A stretch of 64,000 nucleotides of DNA from Terriglobia bacterium (GTDB taxonomy: Bacteria > Acidobacteriota > Terriglobia > Acidiferrales > UBA7541): NCBI GenBank assembly GCA_020073485.1, contig JAIQFB010000016.1, positions 1 through 64,000 on the forward strand. The letters are read 5' to 3'. Below the pieces are notes generated by a model. That model was not told the DNA's origin and did no database searches. It worked only from the letters and a program-made list of their open reading frames with translations. Positions 30,737 to 38,432 of this stretch are shown here, in pieces; the first letter of the stretch is position 1, and each line of letters begins with the position of its first letter. A program made the translations under genes and the position numbers.

Positions 30737-31151
30737 TGGAGGTCAAAACGGCCTCGCCCAGGTTGCGGACGAGACAGGCGGGGGAGTCCTAATCTTCTCG
30801 GCTTCCAGAGCCCGGTAAGCCTTAATCCATATCTCGAACAGATTCAATCCAATCTGAACAACCAGTATTGGCTTGGGTTTGAAATGATGCCAAGTTAGAA
30901 AACAGAATTGCGCTCCGTTGATACCGATACGGAAATTTCCGGCGTCGACTGCAATTCGGCGAACGGCGTCTTAGTTCCCGCTGCAAAATAAATCTTCTCG
31001 CCGGGGGCAGGCATGCCAAGAGAATTTCGATCTGAGGTCTGCCCCTCAACGATACATGCCTGAAAGCGAAGTGATCCGGATCACCGCGTTTCACCGCGCT
31101 TTCGGATATATATCATATACATCCAAGAGTAGCAGGCGGAGGGATATAGTC
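30737..31151. other. Intergenic region upstream of the DUF3300 gene
   Basis: About 415 bases follow the propeller remnant. No further homology to that gene is visible. An AT-rich segment (TATATATCATATACAT near 31107-31122) just before the DUF3300 ribosome binding site is the likely promoter or 5' leader. Nothing else is recognised. Confidence 0.45.
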
Positions 31152-32534
31152 ATGCGAAGAGTCTGGGCAGTCTCCATTTCACTTTTATTGGTGTTTGTAC
31201 CCGTGCTCCAGGCCGCGTCCTCCGCAAGCGGTTACACCCCGCCTGGAGGTCCGCCCCAAGATCAATACCAGGATCAGGTCAATTACGTTTCCTATTCCCC
31301 CGAACAACTCGATAACCTGCTTGCACCGGTCGCGCTCTATCCCGATCCATTGCTCGCTCAGGTGCTTCCCGCTGCGACATTCCCCGACCAGATTGATGAG
31401 GCCGCCCGGTACGTGCGCTCCTACGGCCAGGATGGAATAGACGGCCAGTCATGGGACGTCAGCGTGAAGGCCGTGGCGCACTATCCTTCCGTTCTTTACA
31501 TGATGGCGGACAAGATTGACTGGACCAGTGCGCTCGGTCAGGCCTACGTAAATCAATCCACTGAGGTCATGAGTTCCGTGCAGCGTCTGCGGGCGATGGC
31601 GCGCGCGCAAGGCAACCTCGTTACGGGGTCGCAAATCGAGGTCATAGAGGACGCAGGGTTCATCCAGATCTGGCCGGTGAACCCTCAGTTCCTTTACGTT
31701 CCTATATATGACCCTGCAATCGTCTATTTCAGGAGGCCGTTCTGGGGTGTGGCCATTGGCTTCGGCATTGGCTTTATCATCGGCTCTTGGCTGAACTACG
31801 ATTGCGACTGGCATGGCCGCCGCATCTACTACACCGGATGGCGAGGCGGAGGCTGGATCGGGCGTTCTCGGCCGTACGTTCATATTACAAACGTGTATGT
31901 GAATAACCGGTACGAGCATGTGAACGTCAACCGAGGAATCGTCGATCGCCACGTGAATTTCTACAACGTGAATCGCTACAACAATGTGCATCGCAATGTG
32001 AACTTTGATGACCACGATCGCTCCGGGCGCACTCCACGGCCGGACAGCCGCGTAAACAACCAGATCATCAACCGCAACATCCCAAATGACACTCGAGTAG
32101 ACGAGTTTCGCGGACGCGAGCCCCGGCCAGCTCCACCCACAGGCAGGCCTGGACAACCGGGCGGCGTGGATCGTTCGACTCCACCCACAGGCAGGCCTGG
32201 ACAACCGGGCGGCGTGGATCGTTCGACTCCACCCACGGGCAGGCCTGGACAACCAAGCGGCATGGCGCGTCAAAACCCGCAGCCGCAACGACAGGCTCCA
32301 GCGCCACCATCCGCAGTGCCTCAGGCTGAGCGGTCAGCGCCTCATCCATTCGGGAGAAGTGAGGGTAATTTCCCTCCGCCCGTGGCGAGCCAAAGAGGGC
32401 AAACCAGCCGCGCAACTCCTCCTGGCCCGGCCCCGCGGCCTGGGCCCAGTGCCCCTTCGCGCCCAGCATCTCGCGCTCCTTCAACGCCTGCGCCCAGTGG
32501 TTCACCTGCACGTCCCTCGGGGAGGTCGAAATGA
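31152..32534 (+). CDS. DUF3300 family exported protein with Pro/Gly-rich repeat tail
   Basis: The 460-residue protein has a signal peptide (about 1-24), then the DUF3300 domain: SPEQLDNLLAPVALYPDPLL, ATFPDQIDEAARYVRSYG, WDVSVKAVAHYPSVLYMMAD, IQIWPVNPQFLYVPIYDPAI. A glycine-rich hydrophobic patch (about 195-215), a region rich in Asn/His/Val (NVYVNNRYEHVNVNR), and a low-complexity tail rich in Pro, Gly, Arg follow. The tail contains a tandem 16-residue unit (PPTGRPGQPGGVDRST). The start follows GGAGGG by eight bases; an upstream in-frame ATG at 31056 has no signal peptide. The function is unknown; it is coupled to DUF2950. Confidence 0.88.
   Translation: MRRVWAVSISLLLVFVPVLQAASSASGYTPPGGPPQDQYQDQVNYVSYSPEQLDNLLAPVALYPDPLLAQVLPAATFPDQIDEAARYVRSYGQDGIDGQSWDVSVKAVAHYPSVLYMMADKIDWTSALGQAYVNQSTEVMSSVQRLRAMARAQGNLVTGSQIEVIEDAGFIQIWPVNPQFLYVPIYDPAIVYFRRPFWGVAIGFGIGFIIGSWLNYDCDWHGRRIYYTGWRGGGWIGRSRPYVHITNVYVNNRYEHVNVNRGIVDRHVNFYNVNRYNNVHRNVNFDDHDRSGRTPRPDSRVNNQIINRNIPNDTRVDEFRGREPRPAPPTGRPGQPGGVDRSTPPTGRPGQPGGVDRSTPPTGRPGQPSGMARQNPQPQRQAPAPPSAVPQAERSAPHPFGRSEGNFPPPVASQRGQTSRATPPGPAPRPGPSAPSRPASRAPSTPAPSGSPARPSGRSK
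32131..32265 (+). repeat. 48-bp tandem repeat, about 2.8 copies, inside the DUF3300 gene
   Basis: Units begin at 32131, 32179 and 32227 with CTCCACCCACAGGCAGGCC. The first two units are identical over all 48 bases; the third diverges after about 28 bases. Each encodes 16 residues (PPTGRPGQPGGVDRST), so copy number can change without shifting the frame. Identity between units points to a recent slippage duplication. Confidence 0.95.
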
Positions 32535-33667
32535 AAAGCGCAAAAACGCAAGTCTTCGGCGGTGAGCGAAATGGAAAACAAAACAAAAAGGGGCAGAGTC
32601 GCATGGGCAATCCGCGTTATAGGAATCCGCTGAGCATTTTGAAAGGCACACCTTCGGTTCTGCTCTTTGTGGTTCTCTTTAGTTTTGCGTTCGGAGCAGG
32701 CGTCGTTGCTCGTGGCCAGTCCCAGGCGGCGGTTGCGAATCCGGGCACGCCTTCTGCGGATCAGCAAACGTTCTCCACGCCCGAGGATGCCTCCCAGGCG
32801 CTCCTCACAGCGATAAAGGCAAAAGATAGTACGACGCTTGCTAAGATCTTTGGCCCTGGCGAGGATCAGTTACGCTCTGGAGATCCGGTGGAGGACAACA
32901 ACGACTTGGACGACTTCGCCAAGGGACTGGACGAATCCGCAAAGCTTCGAAAAGACAGCGATACAAAATACACGCTTCTTGTTGGGGAAAACAGCTGGCC
33001 GATGCCAATTCCGATCGTGAAGCAAGGAACCGTGTGGTACTTCGATACGAAAGCCGGCCTCGATGAGATATTGAACCGCAGGATTGGCGATAACGAGCTA
33101 TCAGCGGTTGCCACCGCCCGCGCCTACGTTGTTGCGCAATGGGAGTACTTTACCGCTGGCGATCATGACAACGACGGCGTGGCCGAATACGCGCAGAAAT
33201 TATTCAGCTCACCCGGGCAGAAAGACGGCCTTTACTGGCCCACGGCAGATGACCAAGAACCAAGCCCGCTCGGCGCCCTGATCGCGGACGCGCGGACCGA
33301 AGGATACGGCCCCAAGGCGCGAACGAATATGGGGAGCCCCAAGCCCGTGAACTCCAATGTCCCGGCAGGAGAACAGAGCGCGGCGCGCCCGCGGTATCCC
33401 TACCGCGGCTATTATTTTAAGATCCTGACGAAACAAGGCCCCAGCGCCCCCGGCGGTCAATACAATTACATCATTAATGGAAACATGATTGCGGGATTCG
33501 CCCTGGTCGCGTATCCGGCAAAGTGGGGGAACTCGGGTGTGATGACCATCATCGTGAACCAGCAAGGCCGCGTCTATCAGAAGAACCTCGGTCCCAGCAG
33601 CGATGCGATCGCGACCACGATGACCGAGTACAACCCCGATCCAACCTGGCAGCTTGTCCAGCCCTAA
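32531..33667 (+). CDS. DUF2950 family exported protein
   Basis: The 378-residue protein has a late signal peptide (about residues 37-62, LKGTPSVLLFVVLFSFAFGA) and then DUF2950: FSTPEDASQALLTAIKAKD, RIGDNELSAVATARAYVVAQ, DGLYWPTADDQEPSPLGALI, YPYRGYYFKILTKQGPSAPG and NQQGRVYQKNLG. Its ATG overlaps the DUF3300 stop (ATGA) and has GGAGG five bases upstream, so translation is coupled. A second ATG at 32603 with AAGGGG gives a more usual signal peptide and could be the main start. DUF3300-DUF2950 pairs are recurrent; the joint role is unknown. Confidence 0.88.
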   Translation: MKSAKTQVFGGERNGKQNKKGQSRMGNPRYRNPLSILKGTPSVLLFVVLFSFAFGAGVVARGQSQAAVANPGTPSADQQTFSTPEDASQALLTAIKAKDSTTLAKIFGPGEDQLRSGDPVEDNNDLDDFAKGLDESAKLRKDSDTKYTLLVGENSWPMPIPIVKQGTVWYFDTKAGLDEILNRRIGDNELSAVATARAYVVAQWEYFTAGDHDNDGVAEYAQKLFSSPGQKDGLYWPTADDQEPSPLGALIADARTEGYGPKARTNMGSPKPVNSNVPAGEQSAARPRYPYRGYYFKILTKQGPSAPGGQYNYIINGNMIAGFALVAYPAKWGNSGVMTIIVNQQGRVYQKNLGPSSDAIATTMTEYNPDPTWQLVQP

Positions 33668-33873: not shown

Positions 33874-34914
33874 TTACTGTTTAGGCAGCGGCGTCGAATC
33901 TGTCCTGACTGGCAGAATTGGCACATCGATCCTGGGTTGCTCGCCCGTGAGTGATTGCAGGAACGCCACGATGGAGTCTTCCTCTTGATCGGTCAGCTTC
34001 TGCCCAAGCTGGCTGGCGCCCATGATGGCCACTGCCTGCTTGAGGCTCCAGACTTGGCCGGAATGAAAATAAGGCGCTCGCAATGCCACGTTGCGCAACG
34101 GGCCCGCGCGGAAAACATATTCGTCGCTGGCCGTTTTGGTTACCGCAAAGCGTCCCTTGTCATTCGGCGGAAGAATGTCCGCGCCGGGCTTCTCTACCAC
34201 GCCAAAGGGGAAATAGGCTTTGCCGCCAACATTGATCCCGTTGTGGCAGGCTGAGCAGCCCTTATCCATGAAAAGTTTCAGGCCATCCTTTTCCTGCGCG
34301 TTCAAGGCATTCGCGTCACCATCGAGAAATTGATCGAAATGGGATCCGGGCGTAATCAGGGTCGCTTCAAAGGCCTCGAGCGCCTTGGCAACGTTGTCAA
34401 ACGTTACCGGGGCGGCCTCTTCGGGAAAGGCTTTCTTGAACTGCTCGACATAGCCGGGCATGGAAAGCAATGTCTTTTCGACGAGCGAGGGCGTGGCGTT
34501 CATTTCGACGCTCGCCTGCATTGGTCCTTTGGCCTGAGCTTTTAGATCCTCGGCCCTGCCGTCCCAAAACTGAGCGACGTTGAAAACGGCGTTGAGGACC
34601 GTCGGCGCCCGCCGCGGCCCTTTTTGCCAAGCGTGACCTATCGATGTGGGCCCGGCGTCCACGCCGCCGGTGCTCAGGTTGTGACACGATTCGCAACTGA
34701 TGATCTGGCTGGCCGAAAGACGCGGGTCAAAAAACAGCATTTTTCCAAGTTCAATTTTTTCATGGGTAACGGCGTTGTTCTTCACGGATGGAACAATTGA
34801 CGGGACCGGCTTGAAAGCCTGCTTCGCCGCTTGCATCAGATCATCCGCCCGCAGCAGCGGCATCGCGCCGAGAGCCATCAAAAGACTTGCCACAAACAAG
34901 ATACTTCGTTTCAT
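33874..34914 (-). CDS. Di-haem cytochrome c peroxidase / MauG family protein
   Basis: The 346-residue periplasmic protein has a signal peptide (about 1-23) and two c-type haem sites, CESCH at 74-78 and CSACH at 220-224. Flanking motifs are typical of bacterial di-haem peroxidases: KMLFFDPRLSAS, RAPTVLNAVFNVAQFWDGRA, and FRAGPLRNVALRAPYFHSGQ, with a C-terminal SIVAFLQSLTGE. It may reduce hydrogen peroxide using a cytochrome donor, or oxidise a partner as MauG does. The start follows GGGGGG. It lies 105 bases downstream of the sortase gene on the same strand. Confidence 0.92.
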   Translation of the reverse strand: MKRSILFVASLLMALGAMPLLRADDLMQAAKQAFKPVPSIVPSVKNNAVTHEKIELGKMLFFDPRLSASQIISCESCHNLSTGGVDAGPTSIGHAWQKGPRRAPTVLNAVFNVAQFWDGRAEDLKAQAKGPMQASVEMNATPSLVEKTLLSMPGYVEQFKKAFPEEAAPVTFDNVAKALEAFEATLITPGSHFDQFLDGDANALNAQEKDGLKLFMDKGCSACHNGINVGGKAYFPFGVVEKPGADILPPNDKGRFAVTKTASDEYVFRAGPLRNVALRAPYFHSGQVWSLKQAVAIMGASQLGQKLTDQEEDSIVAFLQSLTGEQPRIDVPILPVRTDSTPLPKQ

Positions 34915-35019: not shown

Positions 35020-35664
35020 TCACGGCGCGCCGGGCGGGCTCGGAAGAGCCGAAATCCTTCGCGCGCGCACGACAAATCGTTCCGGCGCCGCTCCGACGTA
35101 ATAAAAAGGAAAGCATGTAATCAGCGTCATCGCCGGGTCGCTCGTCGGTTCGATCACGCGCACTGCGGTCGGAGGCACGACCGCAGTCCATTCCACCTGG
35201 TACTGGAATTCGCGATCCGGTGTCCTGAACGTGATAAGGTCACCCGGAAGGACGTTGCGCAGCGGCCGAAAAATCCCGTCGCGGTGCCCCGCCAACGCGA
35301 CGTTTCCTGCTTCGCCTGGCAGCGCGGTTTCCGGGAGATGCCCCACCGCGCGTCGCAACATCTGTTCGGAATCGCCTTGAACGACCATTGCTTTCAGCTT
35401 CAATCGCGGCACTTCAAGCTCGCCGATCACTCCGCCTACAGCAATGGGAGCTGCAACGAAAGCGGGCGGCTTTGGAGGCACGCTGACCGCGACTGCCTCA
35501 AACTTGGACATCTCGACATTCTGATACCAATATTGGTCAAGCACGGCGTAGCCCGCAAAGCCGAGCATGAGGATCCCTGCGACCAGAAACACATAATGAG
35601 CCGCCTGCAACACTCGCAGTGTCAGCCCTTCCGCCTGGTGCCTCATGGAAAAAGTCACTCTCAT
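35020..35664 (-). CDS. Class D-like sortase (transpeptidase)
   Basis: The 214-residue protein has one N-terminal membrane helix (about residues 17-45) and a sortase fold from about 75: GELEVPRLKLKAMVVQG and HLPETALPGEAGNVALAGHR, with catalytic His127; TLITCFPFYYVG with Cys184; and ERFVVRAR with Arg196. The TLxTC motif is intact. Sortases cleave LPxTG-like signals and join the substrate to an amine. The ATG overlaps the VWFA stop by four bases; the frame upstream is only the VWFA gene's shadow. Both nearby LPKTG proteins are obvious substrate candidates, which is unusual for a presumed diderm. Confidence 0.9.
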   Translation of the reverse strand: MRVTFSMRHQAEGLTLRVLQAAHYVFLVAGILMLGFAGYAVLDQYWYQNVEMSKFEAVAVSVPPKPPAFVAAPIAVGGVIGELEVPRLKLKAMVVQGDSEQMLRRAVGHLPETALPGEAGNVALAGHRDGIFRPLRNVLPGDLITFRTPDREFQYQVEWTAVVPPTAVRVIEPTSDPAMTLITCFPFYYVGAAPERFVVRARRISALPSPPGAP

Positions 35665-36653
35665 CCGGGATCCTTGCCGGCGCTGACCGCCGATTCCTTC
35701 GGCGGGGTCGCAAGATAGCCGGAGCGCGTCCTGACCTGCAGTTTGCCCCGCCCGGCGGCCTTCACATCCACTCGAATCTTGCGGAACGTGTCGTCGTATT
35801 TCTTCTCCGGAACAAACCCGATCGTGTACTGCTCGCGAAGGTCGCGCGCAATGCTCGCCGAGATGTCCGAGACGGATTGCCCTTCCTCCGGAAAGAACGC
35901 TAATCCGCCCGTGTCCTTGCACAGACGCCGGAGGACACCCGGATTTTCCTCCTCATGCGAGCCGACAAGTCCGATCGCGTAAATCACCGCTTGAGACCGG
36001 TGCGCCAATTCCAAAACGTCGGCATATTTCCGCCTGCTGGCGTTGTCGCCGCCATCGCTGACGATGACCAGAGCCTTCTTATCCGAACGGCCGAGTTGCA
36101 GATGCTTCAGCCCTTCGGCCACGGCGTCGTACAGCGCCGTCATTCCGCGCGCGGAGACCGCCGAGACTGCCTGCGCTAGTTCTCCGGGGTTGCTGGTGAA
36201 AGGCTTTCCGCCCGGCAGTTCCACCGACACGTTGTCGCTGAAGTCCACCACGAACATCTCATCCTTCGGATTGCTCGATTGCGCGAAGGCGGAAACGGCG
36301 GAAGCCACCGCCGGAAGCTTCGGACCCATGCTGCGGCTATGATCCACCACCAGCCCCACGGTTACCGGCGTGTCTTCCTGCTCGAAAAACGTGATCGCCT
36401 GCGGTCGCCCGTCCTCATACACGCCAAAGTGCTCCTGCGAGAGCCCAGAGACGAAATCACCGTTTGTGCCGGTAACGCGAACCGGCAAAACCACCAGCGT
36501 GGTCTCCACGGAAATCTTGCCCTGGCCGGAAGACGCGGATTGCCGCGGCTGACGGGGTCGCGCAACAATTGCAGTTAGGCACAAGAACAGCAGGATGACG
36601 AGAGTAGCGCCCCTACGGTAGATTGCGCGGTGTGATGGCGTGATGGGATTCAC
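35661..36653 (-). CDS. VWFA domain protein (VWFA-related Acidobacterial type)
   Basis: The protein of about 330 residues has an N-terminal membrane helix (about 16-33, ATLVILLFLCLTAIVA), an Ig-like strand region with VVLPVRVTGTNGDFVSGLSQ, and a VWFA domain with an intact MIDAS: DHSRS at about 104-108, GMTALYDAVAEG, and VIVSDGGDN. The preferred start is a GTG with AAGGAGG seven bases upstream; a weaker GTG 25 codons earlier lies five bases after the LPKTG gene. VWFA domains bind metal-dependent ligands or assemble surface structures. It is translationally coupled to the sortase, so it is a likely partner. Confidence 0.87.
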   Translation of the reverse strand: MNPITPSHRAIYRRGATLVILLFLCLTAIVARPRQPRQSASSGQGKISVETTLVVLPVRVTGTNGDFVSGLSQEHFGVYEDGRPQAITFFEQEDTPVTVGLVVDHSRSMGPKLPAVASAVSAFAQSSNPKDEMFVVDFSDNVSVELPGGKPFTSNPGELAQAVSAVSARGMTALYDAVAEGLKHLQLGRSDKKALVIVSDGGDNASRRKYADVLELAHRSQAVIYAIGLVGSHEEENPGVLRRLCKDTGGLAFFPEEGQSVSDISASIARDLREQYTIGFVPEKKYDDTFRKIRVDVKAAGRGKLQVRTRSGYLATPPKESAVSAGKDPG

Positions 36654-36733
36654 GGAACGGCCTCCTTGCGTCGCGGGCTGGACCACCGGCACCTTTGCCC
36701 GCGACGCTTTGGAGTTCGACGCGTTCACAATGC

Positions 36734-37402
36734 TTAGCTCATGAACCGCTTCAGCACGAACGCGAAGCTGACCGACAGCGCGCCGAACAGCGCAATCAAC
36801 GGAACCTGGCTGCCCGTCTTTGGCAGCGGATGAATAGGCGACAGCGTCCCCGTGTCGCGACCCGTGAGCGGGATGAACTCGGCGATGGCGATTTCCGTCC
36901 TCTCAGGAGTCTCCGCAACGATCGCTTCGCTCTTGAGTTCCGGCAGGGTCGCGGGCTCGGTTTCAACCGCGGGAATGGTCTCATGCGTTATTTGGGCGAG
37001 TTCCATTGCGCGCTGCTTCGGATAGACGAATTCCTGGCCAAAATTGTCGCCTGGATAGAACCAGGCCTTCAGCGCGTCCGGGGCGTTTCCGGGCCGCTCC
37101 GAGAACTTCATCACGGTGTCTTCGGTCGGCGTCAGGCGCTGGTTTGGAATCGCCAGCACGGTGGCGATCAACTGAGTCCGGTCGGCATTGTAAATTCTCA
37201 CGATATGACGGTAGGAGAAAGTCTCGTACAGTTCGATCGTGTAGGTGCCTGCGGGAAGAATTTGGCCGGGAATCTCCACGGGCTGGCTGAAGGTGACTAC
37301 GGTCCGCTTGTTGAACTGCGTATCGGCTCGCGCACTTGCGGCAAACGTGACCACGAGCAACAAAACCACGAATAGCGTCAAGATTGTCTGCATCCTTTTC
37401 AT
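36734..37402 (-). CDS. LPKTG-anchored exported protein, paralogue 1
   Basis: The 222-residue protein has a signal peptide (about 1-26), a conserved beta-rich domain (about 30-130: RTVVTFSQPVEIPGQILPAG, HIVRIYNADRTQLIATVLAI, KFSERPGNAPDALKAWFYPG), a Pro/Glu/Thr-rich linker, and a C-terminal sorting signal: LPKTG at 193-197, a hydrophobic stretch, then LKRFMS. The start follows AAGGGGG. It is first in a set with the VWFA and sortase genes. The paralogue at 37770-38432 is divergent. The domain family is found in Acidobacteriota without known function. Confidence 0.85.
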   Translation of the reverse strand: MKRMQTILTLFVVLLLVVTFAASARADTQFNKRTVVTFSQPVEIPGQILPAGTYTIELYETFSYRHIVRIYNADRTQLIATVLAIPNQRLTPTEDTVMKFSERPGNAPDALKAWFYPGDNFGQEFVYPKQRAMELAQITHETIPAVETEPATLPELKSEAIVAETPERTEIAIAEFIPLTGRDTGTLSPIHPLPKTGSQVPLIALFGALSVSFAFVLKRFMS

Positions 37403-37769
37403 TTCACTACCCCCTTGCGATGTGGGCGGGCTCCGGTTGCCATGCTTTGCTCACTTTGCTTCGGGTGCCTTTTGCACCCGTTCCGTCCCACACACTATTG
37501 TTTACTCGCAACCCCCTCCCATCGATATGTCCCTGCTCACAAGCGCGCGTGATCTGGATCACCGATGGAAATCAGCGACAGGGCCGAGGTTTCACCCTGT
37601 GATTGGTGTCACAGCGATGGGTGAGCCCTCTCACTGCCGCACAGACCTTTTAGCGCGTACAAGGAAAGTAAGGAATCGATCCCATGACGGAGCAACGCGA
37701 AGGAAACAGGCCCCTGGACAAAGAAATTGGGGCGTATGGCATGGTTCGGTTTTTGAGGAGGATGACACA
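37403..37769. other. Divergent intergenic region between the two LPKTG genes
   Basis: About 370 bases must hold both promoters. The centre (37,490-37,620) is of mixed composition, and no convincing -35/-10 pair is visible. I see no terminator or RNA gene. A shared regulatory site is possible but not identifiable by eye. Confidence 0.4.
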
Positions 37770-38432
37770 ATGAGAGTCAAAAAAGTTTTTTCGCTATTTC
37801 TGGGGCTAACCCTTTTTGCCGGACTAATGGCGATCCAAGCCCAAGCTCAGACTTCCAACAAGAGAACGACCATCACTTTTAACCAACCTGTGCAAGTTCC
37901 TGGAAAGGTTCTGCCCGCGGGAACCTACACGTTCACGATCCCAGATACCACCGGGATGCGGCATATCGTGCAGATATGGGACAAGGACAAGACGAATCTG
38001 ATCGCCACAGTCCTCGCGATTCCCAATTACCGCCTCGAAGCCAGTGAGGACACTGTGATCGAATTCAGCGAGCGGCCCGCAAACGTGCCACAGGCCGTGA
38101 AGGCATGGTTCTATCCAGGCCACGCCTACGGCATCGAGTTCGTATATCCCCGGCAGGAAGCGATCCGGATCGCCAAGGCGGCAAATGAAGTCGTTCCCGC
38201 GGAGACTGTTGAACCTACTCCGAGCACCCTGGAGACAGTTCCGCTGATCGCCATCACCCCGCAACAAAAGGAAGAACCGATTACAGAAGCATTTCAAACG
38301 GCGCCGACTTCGGCCGAGCCGGTCGAGACAGCCCAAGCATTGCCAAAGACGGGCAGCCTGATTCCGCTGATTGGATTGCTGGGTGTAACGTTCATCCTCA
38401 TTGGATTTGGGCTGAAGCGATTCGCTCAATAA
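37770..38432 (+). CDS. LPKTG-anchored exported protein, paralogue 2
   Basis: The 220-residue paralogue of the protein at 36734-37402 has a signal peptide (about 1-27, ending IQAQAQ) and the same domain: RTTITFNQPVQVPGKVLPAG, HIVQIWDKDKTNLIATVLAI, EFSERPANVPQAVKAWFYPG, GIEFVYPRQEAIRIA. The sorting signal is complete: LPKTG at 191-195, a hydrophobic stretch, and LKRFAQ. The ATG follows GAGGAGG by eight bases; the frame is open far upstream but without a signal peptide. A probable substrate of the adjacent sortase. Confidence 0.86.
   Translation: MRVKKVFSLFLGLTLFAGLMAIQAQAQTSNKRTTITFNQPVQVPGKVLPAGTYTFTIPDTTGMRHIVQIWDKDKTNLIATVLAIPNYRLEASEDTVIEFSERPANVPQAVKAWFYPGHAYGIEFVYPRQEAIRIAKAANEVVPAETVEPTPSTLETVPLIAITPQQKEEPITEAFQTAPTSAEPVETAQALPKTGSLIPLIGLLGVTFILIGFGLKRFAQ

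Follow-up and report, generated by a model that had tools for sequence, protein, structure and literature searches.

The window analysed here, a 64,000-nucleotide stretch of a Terriglobia contig, contains a minus-strand operon in which the gene for a small tailed protein (substrate 1), a VWFA gene and a sortase gene follow one another head to tail and tightly packed. A divergent paralogue of the first gene (substrate 2) lies on the opposite strand. The features, with positions of the window, are as follows.

35020-35664, minus strand: sortase, 214 residues, one N-terminal transmembrane helix, His127, Cys184 and Arg196
35661-36653, minus strand: VWFA protein without a sorting signal, N-terminal hydrophobic segment, intact MIDAS; 36728 is the other candidate start
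36734-37402, minus strand: substrate 1, 222 residues, opening gene of the operon, with AAGGGGG as ribosome-binding site ahead of ATG 37402
36740-36826, minus strand: C-terminal sorting signal of substrate 1 (LPKTGSQVPLIALFGALSVSFAFVLKRFMS), tail profile E 5.7e-15, above the TIGR01167 cut-off
37016-37033, minus strand: residues 124-129 of substrate 1 (EFVYPK), with the tail-associated Lys129
37403-37769, no strand: intergenic region that the two divergent substrate genes share, with presumed promoters
37770-38432, plus strand: substrate 2, divergent paralogue of substrate 1, 220 residues, LPKTGS, GAGGAGG ribosome-binding site before ATG 37770
38340-38429, plus strand: C-terminal sorting signal of substrate 2, tail profile E 1.5e-12

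The start of substrate 2 is ATG 37770, behind its GAGGAGG site; the open frame reaches beyond the gene, beginning at 37245. For the VWFA gene, GTG 36653 behind AAGGAGG is more likely than the start at 36728. The sortase ATG and the VWFA TGA overlap, in agreement with the translational coupling proposed in a preliminary description of this DNA. No sigma-70-like site was found in 37403-37769 between the divergent substrate genes. Adjoining the operon, and on the same strand as had been described, is a gene for a MauG/CCP-type di-haem peroxidase (33874-34914). In a 60-locus sample it recurred beside the operon only in a genome of the same genus, and was therefore ruled out as a component of the system. 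The stretch 31056-33667 holds DUF3300 and DUF2950 genes, which adjoin with a slight overlap.

Each substrate begins with a Sec-type signal peptide, followed by a small beta domain and a linker rich in Pro and Glu; LPKTGS, a hydrophobic helix of about 20 residues and KR make up the C-terminus. The succession of LPKTG, hydrophobic segment and basic tail reported earlier for the upstream gene product and its divergent paralogue was thus confirmed in both, the basic tail being short. A PDB fold search with the structure model of substrate 1, from which the beta domain was read, gave no significant match to that domain, and the substrate, with its single small domain, had no CnaB match in Pfam. At its C-terminus substrate 1 scored 18.9 bits against TIGR01167 (LPXTG signal; cut-off 15.9). 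The tail of substrate 2 was missed by this model and picked up by the family tail profile. Additional TIGR01167 matches in the genome were, where inspected, unconvincing as LPxTG tails. Searching the genome for LPKTG as a DNA pattern gave four matches, one of them a true tail, as against five in a reversed control, so that profiles were needed.

With the tail profile, the genome-wide search for further LPxTG tails that the preliminary description had suggested returned exactly three matches (E 1e-12 to 6e-15; the next at E 0.13), and the full substrate profile likewise found exactly three members, two at the locus and one on contig C45. This one extra paralogue (C45 363265-363942; L078:6266-6946) ends in LPKTAS and is followed by its own VWFA gene. 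No sortase was found in the 13 kb stretch around it, and the enzyme at 35020-35664 is the sole sortase of the whole genome, which probably serves the LPKTA paralogue in trans.

Across the family the signal is LPxT[A/G]SxxP, usually with Ala, and is near-invariant whereas the linker drifts. Among 106 distinct tailed proteins the fifth motif position was Ala in 83 and Gly in 22, followed by Ser in 100; the Pro three residues further on is near-invariant too in the curated sets. Some loci carry an MPxT variant, and the same beta domain also occurs in relatives that lack the tail.

The sortase matched PF04203 at 106.8 bits (cut-off 26.6) and the general sortase model TIGR01076 at 72.5 (cut-off 39.35), placing it within the sortase superfamily. 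Its His127, Cys184 and Arg196, earlier noted as intact, were invariant in 38 homologues. No curated class cut-off was passed: the class D model NF033746 gave 124.4 against 165, the class C model 65.7 against 160 and the class GN model TIGR03784 80.1 against 158.25, the neighbouring protein belonging to TIGR03436 and not to the GN target family TIGR03788. The nearest curated class, the SrtD model NF058671, was missed by 1.6 bits (138.4 against 140). The sortase of the L098 locus, 83% identical to that of the window, passed it at 142.6, and among 11 relatives scanned singly six passed NF058671 and none NF033746. The structure model (pLDDT 89.7) had as its best fold-search match the class D sortase 4d70, and the best PDB sequence match was 2ln7, which we take to be Bacillus anthracis SrtC.

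In sortase trees of 41 and 40 rows, the acidobacterial enzymes stood together with GN, apart from classes A, C, D and E (95/88 and 95/89). GN fell within the acidobacterial sortases at modest support; the alternative topology joining the acidobacterial sortases to class D was not rejected (p-AU 0.134). Since no class cut-off was passed and the tree places the enzyme near GN with class D not rejected, we call it a putative acidobacterial lineage of its own, close to classes D and GN and grouping loosely with GN.

We then surveyed the locus in 250 genomes of the class, mostly metagenome-assembled, all tallies and E-values being drawn from sequence only. A sortase was present in 90 of them. Sortase and tailed substrate occurred together in 77 genomes, the sortase only in 13, the tail only in three and neither in 157 (Fisher p ~1e-46, with genomes treated as unrelated and phylogeny not controlled). 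Within single genera (g2 and g6) the two were gained or lost jointly. In two of the three tail-only genomes (G161 and G235) the contig ends right after the substrate or within the VWFA gene, and at four sortase-only loci that were read (L079, L083, L090 and L091) LPxT-like tails sit on other proteins. Outside the class, the substrate family occurred in 40 of 297 genomes from other families of the phylum.

The survey across Acidobacteriota proposed earlier showed the operon to be widespread. Of 123 sortase-bearing loci, from two partly overlapping sets, 75 had the order substrate-VWFA-sortase, 20 substrate-sortase, five a longer gap and 10 another arrangement, and 13 lacked such a substrate. 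Exactly three tail-profile matches in the genome, together with a gene order kept in dozens of loci, put the locus beyond chance. A malic enzyme gene separates the substrate from the VWFA or sortase gene in about 19 loci (L056:5180-6934; L142:8754-10544), a conserved insertion that we judged an unrelated neighbour. Seven loci (L067, L073, L074, L084, L086, L090 and L091) show a second arrangement, in which the gene downstream of the sortase encodes an LPxT[AG]S-tailed protein whose N-terminal part differs and gave no clear Pfam match. One record (L104), whose title Betaproteobacteria is likely to be a misnomer, has a highly similar copy of the acidobacterial operon.

LPxTG sorting is typical of monoderms, which raises the question of whether the locus came from a monoderm contaminant, the circumstance named earlier as one that would overturn the reading, or is a non-functional relic. 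The genome encodes BamA (459 bits), and the named relatives of the locus are Acidobacteria, Terriglobia, Bryobacterales and Sulfotelmatobacter MAGs, in keeping with the presumed diderm host. A genome of the same genus (L055/L098) has the identical gene order at the locus, and substrate-sortase pairs occur in genomes of one to three contigs (L075-L077); both contradict contamination, as does the presence of a sortase in 90 of the 250 class genomes. BamA, the recurrence of the operon across Acidobacteriota and the shared gene order thus argue that the locus is native, and with the frames intact and the residues conserved either origin is extremely improbable.

The VWFA protein matched TIGR03436 (acidobact_VWFA) at 193.6 bits (cut-off 81.25). 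The intact MIDAS attributed to it (DxSxS, T, D) was found at the locus and in operon-type homologues: in 82 aligned proteins both Asp, the first Ser and the Thr were invariant, and the last DxSxS position was Ser or Thr. An LPxT sorting signal was present in none of these 82. Of the two roles suggested beforehand, polymer tip or partner, the tip is thereby weakened, with a sorted tip rejected, and the partner is favoured. Many substrate-sortase pairs have no VWFA gene, making it an accessory outside the minimal core.

These observations are probably best explained by a self-contained sortase system of diderm Acidobacteriota that anchors the beta-domain protein to the meso-diaminopimelate (m-DAP) of thin peptidoglycan. 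Its direct basis is the gene set, the catalytic residues, a sortase and tail that co-occur and are co-linear, and the outer-membrane and m-DAP markers; from these we infer cleavage, acceptor, location and VWFA role. Sec would export the substrates, whose C-terminal helix would keep them in the inner membrane. Itself membrane-bound, the sortase would cut LPxT from A/G to form a thioester between Cys184 and the Thr, to be resolved by an amine, most likely m-DAP in lipid II or thin peptidoglycan. The beta domain would then be displayed on the periplasmic side of the sacculus at the end of its Pro/Glu-rich linker, and the coupled VWFA protein may act as an unsorted partner, be it a Mg-dependent binder, chaperone or ligand.

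As to the acceptor, MurE of this genome has the sequence TSDNPR, and its DNPR motif is presumably typical of m-DAP-adding enzymes. This peptidoglycan chemistry and, by analogy, the nearest characterised though distant relatives point to m-DAP. B. anthracis SrtC cleaves the T-A bond of LPNTA, with transfer to m-Dpm (PMC3297441), a reaction that the LPxTA-like signal and the nearest relatives (2ln7, 4d70 and the SrtD model) fit. A search of the genome for FemAB gave a FemAB-like frame at 54 bits, so a non-direct crossbridge is conceivable. We know of no sortase acceptor in diderms, which leaves room for an enzyme that mainly hydrolyses the signal, or transfers the protein to a small amine or a non-peptidoglycan envelope molecule, and so frees it from the inner membrane. 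The fully conserved transpeptidase His/Cys/Arg triad and fold, and the availability of m-DAP, make such mere processing quite improbable.

A different nucleophile, counting against m-DAP, is suggested by the conserved lysine of a YPK motif, Lys129 in substrate 1. It is the best conserved lysine of the tailed substrates, kept in 92 of 106, as opposed to none of 18 tail-less relatives, a count read by eye in which a few distant proteins are not alignable with certainty; most of the tail-less relatives share the preceding FVYP-type strand. This link to the tail makes a polymer of the LPxTG protein itself conceivable. In that case the Thr of one substrate would be joined to Lys129 of the following one. 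The result would be a thin, covalently linked, pilus-like polymer, periplasmic or on the surface, that the same enzyme would later anchor to peptidoglycan. Like the pilin lysine, Lys129 ends the N-terminal domain, and vWFA domains can occur on tip pilins of Gram-positive pili (PMC5817068). The pilin motif is YPKN (PMC3297441), whereas the Asn after YPK is not conserved here. The VWFA protein never carries a sorting signal (0 of 82), the class C model is far under its cut-off (65.7 against 160), and the substrate has one small domain without a Pfam CnaB match. Substrate 2 has Arg at the lysine position (its L098 ortholog has Lys), as do the single tailed substrates found in G178 and G105. Moreover, the segment 129-139, a helix starting at 129, is itself tail-specific, so that the lysine may be structural. 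Polymerisation is unlikely in our view, and about as unlikely is its fuller version, an isopeptide-linked diderm envelope polymer in which one-domain subunits are joined by the sortase through the EFVYPK lysine and accompanied by an unsorted VWFA partner.

Among known systems, the one at this locus resembles the class D sortases that act on LPxTA substrates (SrtC of B. anthracis, with BasI/BasH; Clostridium perfringens SrtD) in the nearest curated models, the PDB sequence 2ln7, the fold 4d70, the T-A cleavage site usual here and m-DAP peptidoglycan. It differs in its diderm host, in scores under the cut-offs (124 against 165; SrtD, 138.4 against 140), in a best tree that does not join the two (their joining is not rejected), and in substrates that are unlike in the libraries searched. 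With class GN (TIGR03784) and its VIT/VWA target (TIGR03788) it shares a diderm host, a dedicated neighbouring substrate, a VWA protein and the position in the best tree against A, C, D and E (95/89), but it scores 80 bits against 158, and the small beta-domain protein is tailed while the VWA protein is not. Acidobacteriota separately possess a true GN pair: at L093 sortase and TIGR03788 target are both above the curated cut-offs. This locus, L092 and L094 have class GN-type sortases beside large proteins with a C-terminal helix and another kind of tail. Class C and the YPKN pilins of Gram-positive pili have in common with the present system the YPK lysine ending the N-terminal domain and a nearby VWFA gene, and are set apart by the class C score, the YPKN Asn, CnaB domains, the unsorted VWFA protein and the single small domain.

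Sortases are commonly regarded as a feature of Gram-positives. A 2020 paper still called sortase unknown in strictly negibacterial phyla (PMC7203096), although Gram-negative sortases of class GN had been reported before (PMC3237569). No papers on acidobacterial sortases were found in the open literature searched. Here a conserved gene set of a two-membrane soil bacterium seems to provide LPxT(A/G) cleavage of a secreted protein and its covalent fixation in the envelope. About one-third of the sampled class genomes carry a sortase, mostly alongside this dedicated substrate, and the system makes the diderm use of LPxTG transpeptidation, and its target, testable.
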